In this document: positions 6,521 through 53,854 of the stretch, piece by piece | Numbering within the stretch: the stretch's first letter is position 1 | How the letters are laid out: every line of letters starts with the position of its first letter | Source of the DNA: Cellulomonas fimi | GTDB taxonomy: Bacteria; Actinomycetota; Actinomycetes; Actinomycetales; Cellulomonadaceae | Length of the DNA: 64,000 nt | Direction of reading: 5' to 3' | NCBI RefSeq assembly: GCF_012952065.1 | Contig: NZ_JABCJJ010000005.1 | Location: 62,001 to 126,000, forward strand | Program-made: the position numbers and the translations under genes | The notes under the pieces: generated by a model | Seen by the model: only the letters and a program-made list of their open reading frames with translations | Databases searched by the model: none | Told to the model about the DNA's origin: nothing

Positions 6521-7342
6521 CTAGACCGCTCGGGCCGCCCGGCGTCGTCGGGCGGCCGCCGCGACCTGCACGGCGACCACCAGCACGAGCGCGAGGGCGA
6601 ACATGATCGAACCGATGACGTTCGCCTGGGGCGGGATGCCCCGCGCGGCGGACACGTAGACGAACTTCGGGAACGTGGTGAACGCGCCCGAGTTGAAGTT
6701 GGTGATGATGAAGTCGTCGAAGCTGAGGGAGAACGCCAGCAGCGCCGCGGCCGCGATGCCCGGCACGAGCAGCGGAAAGGTCACCTTCCAGAAAGCGAGC
6801 CACGACGAGGCGTAGAGGTCGGCGGCGGCCTCCTCGAGCCGCGGGTCCAGGCTCGCCACCCGCGCCTTGACCGTGACGACGACGAACGAGACGCTGAACA
6901 TCACGTGCGCGATCACGACCGTGCCGAACCCCGGCTGCACCCGCAGCGAGAGGAACTGAGCCAGCAGCGCCGCCCCGAGCACGACCTCGGGCGTGGACAT
7001 CGGCAGGAAGATCAGCAGGTTGGCGGCGCTCCGCCCGCGGAACCGGTACCGGACGAGCGCGACGGCGACCATCGTGCCGAGCACCGTCGCCCCGGCGGTC
7101 GCGAGCAGCCCGACGGTGAGCGAGTTGACGAACGCCTCGCACACCTGCGGGGCCCCGCACGGGTTGCGCCAGGCGTCGAGCGTGAAGCCCTGCCACACGA
7201 GGTTCGACCGGCCCGCGTCGTTGAACGAGAACGCCACGGTGTAGGCGACCGGCACCAGCAGGTACAGGAACGCGAGCCCCGCGAACACGGGCACGACGGC
7301 GTCGCCCAGCGACCAGCCCCGTCGCCGCCGCGCGGCGCTCAC
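6521..7342 (-). CDS. potC: Spermidine/putrescine-type ABC permease (PotC-like)
   Basis: Inner-membrane subunit of the polyamine importer, 273 residues with about six membrane segments. The EAA loop that docks onto the ATPase is around LEEAAADLYASSWLAFWKVTFPLLVPG. The GTG at 7342 overlaps the potB stop by four bases (GTGA), indicating translational coupling. The first external loop carries two cysteines (CGAPQVC) that could form a disulfide. Subunit naming (B versus C) follows gene order and similarity of style, not biochemical evidence. Confidence 0.9.
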   Translation of the reverse strand: MSAARRRRGWSLGDAVVPVFAGLAFLYLLVPVAYTVAFSFNDAGRSNLVWQGFTLDAWRNPCGAPQVCEAFVNSLTVGLLATAGATVLGTMVAVALVRYRFRGRSAANLLIFLPMSTPEVVLGAALLAQFLSLRVQPGFGTVVIAHVMFSVSFVVVTVKARVASLDPRLEEAAADLYASSWLAFWKVTFPLLVPGIAAAALLAFSLSFDDFIITNFNSGAFTTFPKFVYVSAARGIPPQANVIGSIMFALALVLVVAVQVAAAARRRRAARAV

Positions 7343-15682: not shown

Positions 15683-15961
15683 TCACTCGGCGTCGAGGTC
15701 CGTCTCGAGGAGCCCGGCGAGAGCCTCGAGCGCGTCGTCGGCCCCGTCCCCCTCGGCGCGCAGCACGACGACGTCGCCGTGCGAGGCGCCGAGGCTCATG
15801 AGGGACAGGATGCTCGAGGCGTCCATCGCCTCCTCGGCCGGCTCGCCGTCCATGGCGATGGTCACCGGCACGGGCTGGGCCCCGGCGGCCTTGGCGAAGA
15901 TCGCGGCAGGCCGGGCGTGCAGCCCGACGCGGCTGGCGATGGTGGCTCGGCGTTCGGTCAT
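15683..15961 (-). CDS. ptsH: Phosphocarrier protein HPr
   Basis: Small PTS phosphocarrier of 92 residues that passes phosphate from enzyme I to EIIA domains. The active-site GLHARPAA motif places the phosphorylated histidine at position 15. A Ser-Ser pair at 49-50 (DASSILSLMSLG) lies where Firmicute HPr has its regulatory serine, although HPr kinase is generally lacking in Actinobacteria. It is the last gene of the fructose operon, 53 bases after fruA. No enzyme I gene is in the window. Confidence 0.96.
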   Translation of the reverse strand: MTERRATIASRVGLHARPAAIFAKAAGAQPVPVTIAMDGEPAEEAMDASSILSLMSLGASHGDVVVLRAEGDGADDALEALAGLLETDLDAE

Positions 15962-16014: not shown

Positions 16015-18039
16015 TCAGACGGTGGCGAGCGCCGGCGTGTCGACGGCAGCAGGCCGACGGCTCACGGCGTAGCGCTTGAGGGCGACGACGGCCACGGCCG
16101 AGATCACGGTCCCGAGCGCGATCGCCCCGACGAACCACAGCACGTTGCCGATGGCGAAGAAGACGAAGATCCCCCCGTGCGGCGCCTGCGACGTCACGTC
16201 CGTCGCCATGACGAGCGCTCCCGTGGCGGCGGCCCCGAGCATGCTCGCGGGGATCACGCGCAACGGGTCTGCCGCCGCGAACGGGATCGCGCCCTCGGAG
16301 ATGAAGGACGCCCCGAGCAGCCAGGCGGCCTTGCCGTTCTCGCGCTCGGCGAGGCTGAAGAGCCTCCGGTCGATCACGGTGGCCAGCGCCATCGCGAGCG
16401 GCGGCACCATGCCCGCCGCCATGACGGCCGCCATGATCTGCCACGGCGCGGTGTTGTCGACGCTCGCCGTCCCGAGACCCGCCACCGCGAAGGAGTAGGC
16501 CACCTTGTTGACCGGACCGCCGAGGTCGAACGCCATCATGAGGCCGAGGATGATCCCGAGGGTCACGGCGGACGCGCCGGTCATGCCCGCGAGCCACGCG
16601 TTGAGCCGCTCGGTGACGAACGCGATCGGGCCGCCGAGCACGAGGAACATCAGGCCGGACGCCACGATCGACGCCGCGAGCGGGATGATCACGACCGGCA
16701 TGAGGCTGCGGAGCCAGCGCGGGACGTCGAGGCGCTCGAAGCTCTTGGCCACCACCCCGGCGAGGAGCCCGCCGACGATGCCGCCGAGGAAGCCCGCGCC
16801 CATGAAGCCCGCCACGGCCCCGGCGGTGAAGCCGGGCGCGATGCCCGGCCGGTCCGCGATCCCGTACGCGATGTAGCCCGCCAGCGCCGGCACCAGGAAG
16901 CCCATCGAGAGCTGGCCAATCTTGAAGAACACCGCGCCGAGGTAGGCACCGAGGCCGCCGTCGGGCAGGGCGAGGAAGGTGTTCTCGAGCACGATCTGGT
17001 CCGCCGTGCCGGTGATGTCGAACCCGCCCAGGAGGAACCCGAGCGCGATCATCAGCCCACCCGCGGCGACGAACGGGATCATGTAGCTCACGCCGGTGAG
17101 GAGGGCGCGCTTGAGCTGGTGGCCGAGGTGCTCGCTCCGCTCCTCCTCCGTGGCGGCGTCGGGGTGGAACCCGCCGCTCACCCGCCGGGCGTGCGGGTCG
17201 TCGGCGGCGGCCAGCGCCTCGGCGACCATCCGCGCGGGCTCGTCGATGCCGCGCTTGACGGGCGCGTTCACGACGGGCTTGCCGGCGAAGCGCTCGCGGC
17301 CCCGCACGTCCACGTCGACCGCGAAGATCACGGCGTCGGCCGCGGCGATCACCGCCGGGTCGAGGGCCGCCATGCCCGCCGAGCCCTGGGTCTCCACCTG
17401 GAGGTCGACCCCGGCCTCGGCGGCGGCGGCCGAGAGCGCATCGGCCGCCATGTAGGTGTGGGCGATCCCGGTCGGGCAGGCGGTCACGGCGACGAGGCGC
17501 CGGGTCCGCGGTGCGCCGGAGGGCACCGGCTCCGTCATGCTGCCGGCCACCGGTGCTGCGGGTTCCGCTGCTCCTGCCGGCGCCGGTGCAGGGCTGACGA
17601 CCGCGGTGACGATCGCGACGACGTCGGCCGCCGAGCCCGCGGCCCGCAGCGACGTCGTGAAGTCCTTCTTCATGAGCGATCGGGCGAGCTTGGCGAGGAG
17701 CTTGAGGTGCTCCTGATCCGCACCGGCCGGCGCCGCGATGAAGAACACGAGGTCGGCGGGACCGTCGTTCGCCCCGAAGTCGACGGGCGGGGACAGCCGC
17801 GCCATCGCGAGGGTCGGCTCGGTGACCGCCTCCGACCGGCAGTGCGGGATCGCGATCCCGCCGGGGATGCCCGTGGCCGTCTTGGCCTCGCGGGCCAGGG
17901 CGTCGGCGGCGAGGCCCTCGACCTCGGTGGCCCGGCCCGCGGCGACGACACGCTCCGCCAGGTGCCGGATGACGGTGGTCGGTGAAGCTCCCAGGTCGGC
18001 GTCGAGCGCGACGAGGTCGGTGGTGATCAGAGCACCCAC
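16015..18039 (-). CDS. fruA: Fructose PTS enzyme IIABC
   Basis: Membrane transporter that takes up fructose and phosphorylates it to fructose 1-phosphate. The single 674-residue chain has EIIA first (phospho-His66 in GIAIPHCRSEA), then EIIB (phospho-Cys188 in TACPTGIAHTYM), then the EIIC channel of about eight to ten membrane segments from about residue 305. An Ala/Pro-rich linker joins IIA and IIB. The GTG start at 18039 has GGAGGA upstream and lies inside the end of fruK (13-base overlap), so the two are translationally coupled. Confidence 0.95.
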   Translation of the reverse strand: MGALITTDLVALDADLGASPTTVIRHLAERVVAAGRATEVEGLAADALAREAKTATGIPGGIAIPHCRSEAVTEPTLAMARLSPPVDFGANDGPADLVFFIAAPAGADQEHLKLLAKLARSLMKKDFTTSLRAAGSAADVVAIVTAVVSPAPAPAGAAEPAAPVAGSMTEPVPSGAPRTRRLVAVTACPTGIAHTYMAADALSAAAAEAGVDLQVETQGSAGMAALDPAVIAAADAVIFAVDVDVRGRERFAGKPVVNAPVKRGIDEPARMVAEALAAADDPHARRVSGGFHPDAATEEERSEHLGHQLKRALLTGVSYMIPFVAAGGLMIALGFLLGGFDITGTADQIVLENTFLALPDGGLGAYLGAVFFKIGQLSMGFLVPALAGYIAYGIADRPGIAPGFTAGAVAGFMGAGFLGGIVGGLLAGVVAKSFERLDVPRWLRSLMPVVIIPLAASIVASGLMFLVLGGPIAFVTERLNAWLAGMTGASAVTLGIILGLMMAFDLGGPVNKVAYSFAVAGLGTASVDNTAPWQIMAAVMAAGMVPPLAMALATVIDRRLFSLAERENGKAAWLLGASFISEGAIPFAAADPLRVIPASMLGAAATGALVMATDVTSQAPHGGIFVFFAIGNVLWFVGAIALGTVISAVAVVALKRYAVSRRPAAVDTPALATV

Positions 18040-19007
18040 TGGTCATCCTCCATCGGATGGGTGGCGACAGCCGTCACGGTGACGGCGTCGGGTCGGGTCT
18101 GCTCCAGCGCGGGAACGGTGGAGCCGGGGAGCGAGGCTGCAGCGGCCCCGTGAGCGACGGCCTGGCGCAGGCGGTCGGGAGCGGACGACCCGGCGAGGTC
18201 GGCGAGGAGGTACCCGGCGAGTGCCGAGTCCCCGGCACCGACCGTGCTCCGGGGAACCATGGGAGGAGTACGGCCGAGCCAGCTGCCCTCCGCAGTGACC
18301 AGGACGGCCCCCTGAGAGCCGAGGGTCGCCAGGACGGCGCCCACGCCGGCGTCGACCAGCGACCGCGCCGCGGCCGCCGCGAGCGACGGGTCAGTCTCGA
18401 GACCGGGCCCGTCACCGACGCCGGTGAGCTCGGCGAGCTCCTCGGCGTTCGGCTTGAGCAGGTCCGGGTGCGCGGCGACCGCCGCGGCGAGCGGTGGGCC
18501 GGACGCGTCGACCGCGACCCGCGGGGCTGCGGCCCCGAGCCGCGCACGCAGCTCGCGGACCAGTCCGGCGTAGAAGTCGTCCGGGACCCCTCCGGGCAGG
18601 GATCCGGCGAGCACCAGCCATCGGGCGCCCGTCACCCGGGCGAGCACGAGCTCGACGAGTGCCGCCTGCTGGTCCGCCCGAAGGGACGGACCCGGCGCGT
18701 TGACCTTCGTGGTGGTGCCGTCGGGCTCGGTGAGCGCCACGTTGCTGCGCAGCGGGGTGCCGATCGGGAGTCCGACGTGCGGGATCCGCTGCGCCACCAG
18801 GGCAAGCATCACGGGGTCGTCCGCGTCGCCCGGGAGCACCGCCAGGCACGGCGCTCCCGTGGCCTGCAGGGCTCGGCAGATGTTGACGCCCTTGCCGCCG
18901 GGCTCCTGGCTGTCGCCGACCGCCCGTTGCACCGCACCACGGGCGAGCGGCTCGGCGAGCTCGACGGTGCGGTCGAGGCTCGGGTTCGGGGTCAGCGTGA
19001 CGATCAT
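18027..19007 (-). CDS. fruK: 1-phosphofructokinase
   Basis: PfkB/ribokinase-family kinase of 326 residues that converts fructose 1-phosphate to fructose 1,6-bisphosphate. Family motifs are GGKGVN (about 37-42) and STVGAGDS with catalytic Asp260. The ATG overlaps the fruR stop (ATGA), and its own end overlaps the fruA start, so the cluster is translated as one coupled unit. Confidence 0.94.
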   Translation of the reverse strand: MIVTLTPNPSLDRTVELAEPLARGAVQRAVGDSQEPGGKGVNICRALQATGAPCLAVLPGDADDPVMLALVAQRIPHVGLPIGTPLRSNVALTEPDGTTTKVNAPGPSLRADQQAALVELVLARVTGARWLVLAGSLPGGVPDDFYAGLVRELRARLGAAAPRVAVDASGPPLAAAVAAHPDLLKPNAEELAELTGVGDGPGLETDPSLAAAAARSLVDAGVGAVLATLGSQGAVLVTAEGSWLGRTPPMVPRSTVGAGDSALAGYLLADLAGSSAPDRLRQAVAHGAAAASLPGSTVPALEQTRPDAVTVTAVATHPMEDDQWVL

Positions 19008-19792
19008 GCGACCACGACCTCCACCTCGGCCTCGGCCAGCGCACGCGCCAGGTCGGGCGGCGGAGAGTCGTCGGTGACGAGGGCATCGATCTGGTCGAGC
19101 GTCGCGAACCGGACCAGCGTGTCCTCGCCGAGCTTCGAGGAGTCCACGAGCGCGACGACGCGTCGCGCCGATCGCACCATGGCGGCCTTGACCGCGGCCT
19201 CGGCCGAGTCGGGGGTGCTCAGACCGAAGTCGGCGGTCAGGCCGTTCGCACCCACGAACGCGACGTCGGCGCGCAGCGCGTCGAGCTGGCGGGTCGTCGT
19301 CGGGCCCACGAGGGCGCTGGTCAGGCCACGCACGCGGCCGCCGAGGAGGTCGAGCTGGATCTCGACGCTGGCCGCGAGGACGGAGGCGATCGGCAGGGCG
19401 TTCGTGATCACGAGCAGCTCGTCGCCGACCCGCTCGGCGCGCCAGGTCGCGAGCCGGTCCGCGAGCCGCTCCGTCGTGGTCCCGGCGTCGAGGATCACCG
19501 ACGCCGCGCGGCCCGCGGGGACGAGCGCCAGCGCTGCGTCCGCGATGCGGTTCTTCTCGTCGAGTCGCTGGGTGCGGCGCTCGAGGAGGCTGGGCTCGGA
19601 CAGGCTGACCCGGTGCATAGCCACCGCTCCACCGTGGACCCGGCGCAGCCGACGAACGCCCTCCAGCGTGTCGAGGTCTCGCCGGACCGTCTCGGGAGTG
19701 ACGTCGAGCTCGGCCGCGAGCTCGGCCACGGTGACGCGGCCGCGGTCCGCGACGACGTCGGCGATCCGGTCCTGGCGTTCGTGTGCGAACAC
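19004..19792 (-). CDS. fruR: DeoR-family regulator of the fructose operon
   Basis: A 262-residue DeoR-type repressor. The N-terminal winged helix-turn-helix is at about 5-57 (RQDRIADVVADRGRVTVAEL region, then VTPETVRRDLDTLE), followed by a sugar-phosphate-sensing domain with LDAGTTTERLA. As first gene of fruR-K-A-ptsH it most likely represses its own operon and is released by a fructose phosphate. The GTG start has GGAG seven to eight bases upstream. Its leader carries tandem repeats that may be its operators. Confidence 0.92.
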   Translation of the reverse strand: MFAHERQDRIADVVADRGRVTVAELAAELDVTPETVRRDLDTLEGVRRLRRVHGGAVAMHRVSLSEPSLLERRTQRLDEKNRIADAALALVPAGRAASVILDAGTTTERLADRLATWRAERVGDELLVITNALPIASVLAASVEIQLDLLGGRVRGLTSALVGPTTTRQLDALRADVAFVGANGLTADFGLSTPDSAEAAVKAAMVRSARRVVALVDSSKLGEDTLVRFATLDQIDALVTDDSPPPDLARALAEAEVEVVVA

Positions 19793-19805
19793 GGGTGCTC
19801 CTCGG

Positions 19806-19850
19806 CGTTGAGGTGACGGCGTTTGAGGTGACGGCGTTTGAGGTGACGGC
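19806..19850. repeat. Three 14-15-bp tandem repeats in the fruR leader
   Basis: GTTTGAGGTGACGGC is present as perfect copies at 19821-19835 and 19836-19850, and as a one-base-shorter copy at 19807-19820. The core CGTTTGAG also occurs in the promoter spacer at 19914-19921. Location between the predicted transcription start and the GTG makes these operator or leader elements. Confidence 0.85.
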
Positions 19851-19903
19851 GTTGACGTGGCGAGGACGGGTGTCCGGCGCGGTGATCCGCCTGCGTTCTT
19901 GTG

Positions 19904-19933
19904 ACTCTATGCCCGTTTGAGTTTGCTTGTCAA
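19904..19933 (-). promoter_or_regulatory. Strong sigma-70-like promoter of the fru operon
   Basis: On the minus strand TTGACA (19928-19933) and TAGAGT (19904-19909) are separated by 18 bases, a near-consensus housekeeping promoter in an unusually AT-rich patch. Transcription would start near 19897 and leave a leader of about 105 bases holding the tandem repeats. The spacer contains CGTTTGAG, the same core as those repeats. Confidence 0.75.
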
Positions 19934-19986
19934 CGAATCACAGGTAAACAAATCCTGCGGGCGTGAGCGGCCCGCGTTGGAGGAGC

Positions 19987-20023
19987 ACGAAGGGCACCCG
20001 GGTTCTCCGCCGGTGCCCTTCGT
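19987..20023 (-). terminator. Intrinsic-type hairpin after the DivIVA-like gene
   Basis: ACGAAGGGCACC (19987-19998) pairs perfectly with GGTGCCCTTCGT (20012-20023), a 12-bp stem with a 13-base loop, beginning 16 bases after the stop codon of the upstream minus-strand gene. There is no U-tract, as is common in high-GC Actinobacteria. Confidence 0.75.
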
Positions 20024-53074: not shown

Positions 53075-53854
53075 TCACCCCTCGCCGAAAGCGGCCTCGA
53101 TCTCGTCCATCACCGCGACGAACGCCGGCCGTGCCTGCGGGCCCGACGCCGCGACCACCAGCTCGCGCCCGCCGGTCGCGCCCAACCCGATGAGCGCCAG
53201 CACGCTGCGCGCGTCCACGCCGTCGACCGTCACGGTGGCGTCGAACTCCGCGGCCGTGCGGGCCAGCTGAGCGGCCGGGCGCGCGTGCAGGCCGAGCGGG
53301 TTGCGCAGGACGACGCTCCCTCGCACCGTCGGCGACGAGGCGTGCGTCGACGCTCGCCCGCCGGGCGAACCCGCGGAGGAACCCGGCCCGGACGCAACCG
53401 GTGCGGGCGCGCCGGACCGCGCGAACGAGGCGGCGGCGGACTCCGCGGCCTCGGCGACCTCGCTCAGGCCACCGCCGCCGGCCGCGGCGACGGCTGCGGC
53501 GACCGCGCCCTCCACGAACGGGGCGTCCACCAGGAGGACGCGTCCGGCGACGTCGTCGGCCGCGAGCTCGAGGACCGACTCCGTGGTCAGCACCGCCGAG
53601 CCGAGATCCGTGAGCACGACGACCGGGCGGTCGCCGGCCGCCGCCTGCTCGACGGCTCGCGCGATGAGCGCGAAGCTCGTACCGAGGCCTCCGTCCTCGA
53701 GGCCGCCCGCGGGAAGGATCGCGACGTCGGTCGCCATCTGACGCGCCAGCGTGGCGGTGCCGACCGCGACGTCGGCGGAGTGGGAGACCAGCACGAGCGC
53801 GACCCGCGGCGTGCGGCCGGCGACCCGGCCCGTCGTCACGTCAGGCACCGTCAT
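53075..53854 (-). CDS. dhaM: PTS-dependent dihydroxyacetone kinase subunit DhaM (EIIA-HPr)
   Basis: Phosphodonor subunit of 259 residues. The N-terminal EIIA-mannose-like domain carries the phospho-histidine in VSHSADVA (His25), and an HPr domain at the C-terminus has GLHARPAA with His190. An Ala/Ser/Pro linker joins them. The enzyme-I-like third domain of E. coli DhaM is absent, so phosphate must come from general PTS enzyme I. The ATG lies 14 bases inside dhaL; GTG codons at 53848 and 53839 are alternatives and none has a good Shine-Dalgarno. Confidence 0.9.
   Translation of the reverse strand: MTVPDVTTGRVAGRTPRVALVLVSHSADVAVGTATLARQMATDVAILPAGGLEDGGLGTSFALIARAVEQAAAGDRPVVVLTDLGSAVLTTESVLELAADDVAGRVLLVDAPFVEGAVAAAVAAAGGGGLSEVAEAAESAAASFARSGAPAPVASGPGSSAGSPGGRASTHASSPTVRGSVVLRNPLGLHARPAAQLARTAAEFDATVTVDGVDARSVLALIGLGATGGRELVVAASGPQARPAFVAVMDEIEAAFGEG

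Follow-up and report, generated by a model that had tools for sequence, protein, structure and literature searches.

The region upstream of fruR in Cellulomonas fimi raises the question of whether a DeoR-type regulator would control its own fructose operon from the promoter alone, or from the promoter together with a short repeat array in the leader, as a first-pass annotation had proposed. The window, i.e., the whole stretch of DNA analyzed here, is 64,000 nucleotides long, and coordinates refer to it unless the contig is named. The genes concerned lie on the minus strand in the order fruR-fruK-fruA(IIABC)-ptsH, as follows.

19004..19792, minus strand: fruR, DeoR-type regulator with a GTG start, DeoR HTH and sensor domains
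18027..19007, minus strand: fruK, 1-phosphofructokinase family
16015..18039, minus strand: fruA, fructose PTS IIABC
15683..15961, minus strand: ptsH, HPr
19798..19803, minus strand: ribosome site GAGGAG, from sequence reading

The four genes would form a single transcript, and the GTG start of fruR is in register with those of four relatives in an alignment. The DeoR-type regulator adjoins fruK and the fructose PTS genes, which is the arrangement expected of an autoregulated fructose operon with a FruR of this type. HPr-domain matches on this contig (C56) are found at 15704-15955 and 53102-53320 in the window and, outside it, at contig positions 171970-172209; the sole ptsI match (contig 170274-170633) is near the third of them.

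Transcription is expected to start from the following site.

19904..19933, minus strand: promoter TTGACA-18-TAGAGT, from the promoter scan, aligned with four relatives

The scan recovered the promoter that had been read by eye, with TTGACA at 19933-19928, a spacer of 18 and TAGAGT at 19909-19904 on the minus strand; it is the sole promoter-like site reported between 19500 and 20300, against a shuffle mean of 0.0. The core word CGTTTGAG was likewise confirmed within the spacer, at 19914-19921, where it has the strand that it has in the array. On the 5' side of the promoter, a terminator-like hairpin (19957-19975, minus strand) and a perfect 12-bp inverted repeat (19987-20023) may mark the transcript end of the upstream DivIVA-domain gene.

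Conservation around this promoter was assessed with a motif learned from the regions upstream of FruR relatives, taken from one named-genome collection and from further genomes, the window being left out. Loci with a FruR match under 150 bits were excluded before motif learning, as were the window's own copies (L001, L071, L072, and L078) and L030, which equals L029 over the stretch shown; the L066 and L067 sequences were retained, and in some of the loci L110-L144 the upstream stretch contains the start codon (a 3-nt shift). The 101 remaining regions yielded a 20-bp motif of consensus CAACACAAACAGACATAAAG, to which 69 contributed sites and 32 none, so that it is common to orthologous operons, over or near the promoter, without being universal. 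Its matches at the fru promoter are the following.

19905..19924, minus strand: operator-like right arm AAACTCAAACGGGCATAGAG, lying in the -35/-10 spacer, overlapping the -10, and including the core at 19914-19921
19940..19955, plus strand: weak inverted left arm ACAGGTAAACAAATCC, 6.1 bits, separated from the right arm by a 15 bp gap
19885..19904, minus strand: weak further match directly 3' of the promoter, 3.5 bits, fifth in the window, of doubtful significance

On both strands of the 64 kb, the best site is the right arm, read from 19924 to 19905 on the minus strand, with 22.5 bits, followed by a site of 7.0 bits at 6599 (plus strand) and by one of 6.3 bits at 19930 (plus strand), also at the fru promoter. 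The eight best of 150 random starts led to this motif again, offset by two or three bases, and placed the best site of the window at 19921 or 19922. A caveat is that the motif overlaps the -10: the promoter site ranked first of 127,974 when only columns 1-14 were used, which omits most of the -10, it was first again with columns 1-11, and the spacer site was fourth with a 10-column motif (columns 5-14). The spacer word CTCAAACG is aligned with GATGAACA in L002, GATAAACA in L003, AATAAACA in L081, and AACAAACA in L082, which, together with the motif results, makes the core noticed in the first reading part of a conserved element. A 10-bp repeat within the operator was also considered and rejected, the autocorrelation of conservation having no clear 10-bp peak (0.11 at 10). 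Judging from sequence conservation, the motif in the promoter and spacer is probably the operator of FruR, and its position over the promoter would imply a block of initiation.

The distribution of the motif among relatives bears on the identity of the protein that would bind it. Scores above 15 bits were obtained for 40 of 56 fruK-linked relatives, the other 16 being at or below that value, vs. 1 of 10 unlinked ones (fruK not within 150 bases); the exception is L051, classed as unlinked, as is L046, though fruK lies 189 and 401 bases downstream in these two loci. The same threshold was passed by 13 of the 35 relatives known from their upstream stretch only and by 2 of 1010 shuffled regions, and a score above 6 bits by 46 of the 56 fruK-linked relatives vs. 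60 of the 1010 shuffled regions, counts that overstate the evidence because related species are not independent. Of the loci in the window's own family, L002 (14.9 bits) and L003 (21.0 bits) alone have the motif, and L004 (same genus, fruK-linked), L079, L080, L140, and L142 lack it; among FruR proteins from other genera, the closest are those of L081 (67%) and L082 (66%), and both come with it. The right arm is 112 nt from the start codon in the window, and 36-127 nt in the relatives (median 73.5, n = 54).

The motif might instead belong to a different, SugR-like regulator of the DeoR type rather than to the neighboring FruR. There is a precedent in Corynebacterium glutamicum, in which SugR represses cg2118-fruK-ptsF via an AC-rich site containing ACAAAC and AACA blocks; the sugR mutant is derepressed on acetate and a mutant of cg2118, the gene in the place of fruR, is not, PTS gene transcription being raised in the sugR mutant only (PMC2222622). 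This reading is nevertheless improbable for the window, given that the motif tracks fruK-linked fruR genes, that a single protein of the same genome matches FruR at E <= 0.001, and that a pattern designed with knowledge of the window's site matches this genome once, at the fru promoter. The best other site in the 285,675 own-genome bases scanned reached 10.5 bits, and no FruR-type site was found near ptsI in that scan, where the best score was 0.4 bits.

Another recurrent element was seen in part of the collection. A TGTGA-N5/6-TCAC palindrome, which we take to resemble a CRP/GlxR site, is located 3' of the fru promoter and 5' of fruR in 12 of the 101 relatives (L081, L084, L085, L087, L088, L089, L092, L094, L097, L101, L102, and L103) and is absent from the window; a looser form of the pattern occurs in 14 of the 101, vs. 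a shuffled mean of 0.3.

The arrangement of the arms is consistent with an inverted FruR operator. An upstream inverted arm of more than 4 bits accompanies the right arm in 27 of the 54 relatives in which the latter exceeds 15 bits, vs. 3 of the 37 stretches used as controls. Ten relatives have a gap of 5-6 bp between the arms, 14 have one of 15-17 bp, two have one of 26 bp, and one has a gap of 34 bp. These spacings mostly increase by single turns of the helix, and 24 of the 27 fall at 5-6 or 15-17 bp, the window having 15. The 6.1 bits of its left arm are weak, and more than 6 bits with the full motif is also reached by those 60 of 1010 shuffled regions.

The other component of the proposed control region lies in the leader.

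19803..19853, written on the plus strand: 15-bp tandem array of 3.5 copies in the fruR leader, TRF score 95

This array has the top score among the 32 tandem-repeat rows of the window. The three leader copies described in the first-pass annotation hold insofar as the array exists, but the exact unit GTTTGAGGTGACGGC is found only twice (19821-19835 and 19836-19850), the first copy lacking one T and the end of the array carrying a degenerate GTTGACGTGGCG. The assertion that four iterations of the core exceed chance depended on a miscount, the window containing three occurrences of CGTTTGAG rather than four. Three occurrences were observed vs. 0.52 expected, and 2 of 100 shuffles reach three; they are not independent because two of them are copies of one tandem unit. 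More informative is that one 8-mer is common to the array unit and the 30-nt promoter; when the promoter was shuffled by dinucleotides, 81 of 20,000 shuffles had some 8-mer in common with the unit (about 0.05 unit 8-mers per 30 nt are expected when counted over the window, array included), and because this word was chosen after the fact it is suggestive at most. That the array and the spacer have a core in common is most likely due to chance, and the case cautions against inferring common binding from a word that a promoter has in common with a tandem repeat nearby.

Could the array be a second FruR platform, which would block elongation or loop to the promoter operator? The first-pass annotation had suggested that FruR could bind at both places; the promoter half of that idea agrees with the conserved operator-like motif, from which FruR binding is predicted, and the array half does not, its best score being -9.6 bits vs. 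22.5 at the promoter. The common 8-mer has the same orientation in array and spacer, and GTCACTCAAACG, which is close to the unit's GTCACCTCAAACG, stands right after the -10 in L103, L105, and L106. A profile of this downstream element, which discriminates poorly, ranks the array units 74-89 of about 128,000 and the promoter's own element 35-37, and a motif derived from relatives could miss a derived type of site. Shorter motifs nevertheless rank the array only 255, 391, and 80, its 15-bp period would put adjacent units on opposite faces of the helix, vs. arm gaps that change in steps of roughly 10 bp, and in the four aligned relatives the promoter motif is conserved and the leaders have no array. 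Motif score, helical phase, and conservation thus led us to reject the leader array as an operator, and a second platform there seems very unlikely.

The array could also act in the RNA, its CACCTC words pairing with the GAGGAG ribosome site so that copy number tunes fruR translation. Both the minimum-energy and the centroid folds do contain a CCUC-AACGCC-GAGG hairpin that covers the ribosome site, but the last array copy suffices for it. The predicted accessibility of the ribosome site, 0.26 in the native leader, is 0.29 and 0.25 after removal of one and two units, and 300 shuffled arrays gave a mean of 0.32 (sd 0.13), one third of them at or below the native value. With a leader fold z-score of +0.92, 167 of 200 shuffles folding at least as well, and no Rfam match of the leader at E <= 1, the array was rejected as an RNA switch or ribosome-site mask, and we give a role in translation very little credence.

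The origin of the array appears to be local. A dispersed repeat was considered and rejected: the genome has two instances of the exact 15-mer, which are both inside the array, and with one or two mismatches it occurs in nine more places, including the first copy of the array. Sampling 200 kb of this genome gave 16 rows of tandem repeats scoring 95 or more, corresponding to about 11 distinct arrays, coding and noncoding DNA taken together. In the alignment, some 58 columns of the window's leader, array included, are missing from the four relatives, the placement of the gap being arbitrary. No tandem array of this 15-bp unit was reported among the 101 upstream regions; they contain ten other tandem-repeat rows, at least one of them in a leader. 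The latter belongs to another species (L089), in which a different array of period 13, AGTCACTGACGCT, is present in three copies, 81 to 43 bases 5' of fruR, as if leaders acquired such arrays independently. The 109-nt leader has weak matches in 16 of 396 other genomes (two candidates scored per genome), four of which (G231, G302, G315, and G566) have the leader match and a FruR match on different contigs. Derivation of the array by duplication of the leader beside the ribosome site was not established by shuffle scores, equal values being obtained for 78 of 2000 shuffles with L081, 793 with L002, 1481 with L003, and 306 with L082, each of 2000.

Among functional readings of such an element, the array might be young and variable in copy number, FruR or another factor contacting it weakly on alternating helix faces and slippage between strains tuning the fructose operon, which we hold to be a slim prospect. 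It is most probably an ordinary, lineage-specific tandem duplication, and is probably neutral for regulation.

The explanation that we favor with good, though not full, confidence, on the strength of the sequence comparisons, is thus an autoregulated fru promoter with a predicted inverted FruR operator, fructose 1-phosphate as inducer, and a probably neutral array. The promoter observed would drive the fruR-fruK-fruA-ptsH operon in the gene order found here. From the conserved motif over the promoter-like site and the geometry of its arms, we infer that FruR is the protein bound and that it acts as a repressor. The right arm of the operator would fill the -35/-10 spacer, the start of the left arm would be 31 bp upstream of that of the right arm, a distance of about three turns of the helix, and bound FruR would exclude RNA polymerase. 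Fructose 1-phosphate, which FruA would make and FruK consume, is the expected inducer in this operon. More generally, these data suggest how the operator of a group of FruR proteins from actinobacteria might be built: an arm resembling CAACACAAACAGACATAAAG would lie in the spacer of the promoter, and in many cases a second, inverted arm would follow the phase of the helix in its distance from the first.

No comparable motif for an actinobacterial FruR was found in the accessible parts of the open-licence literature; in the available portion of a study of bifidobacteria, FruR is listed without a motif (PMC4746261). The cg2118-fruK-ptsF cluster of C. glutamicum is like the window in its gene order, with ptsH next to it, and differs in its control by SugR, which is encoded nearby, whereas the window's genome has one DeoR-type FruR match; the SugR sites lie within or downstream of promoters, and their resemblance to the site described here is limited to the AC-rich blocks (PMC2222622). 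The FruR of Lactococcus lactis is like that of the window in that it is of the DeoR type and belongs to a fructose operon; its operator likewise has repeated units, which overlap the -35 box (PMC2222622, PMC10765703). As far as the two can be compared by description, its operator consists of four adjacent 10-bp repeats, whereas that of the window would have inverted arms through the -35/-10 spacer (PMC10765703, PMC2222622). In Staphylococcus aureus, FruR is of the DeoR type and represses the fruRKT operon to which it belongs, and fructose 1-phosphate disturbs its binding in mobility shift experiments (PMC10765703). Its footprint extends from -85 to -40, 5' of the promoter, in contrast with the predicted site of the window, which lies in the spacer (PMC10765703).
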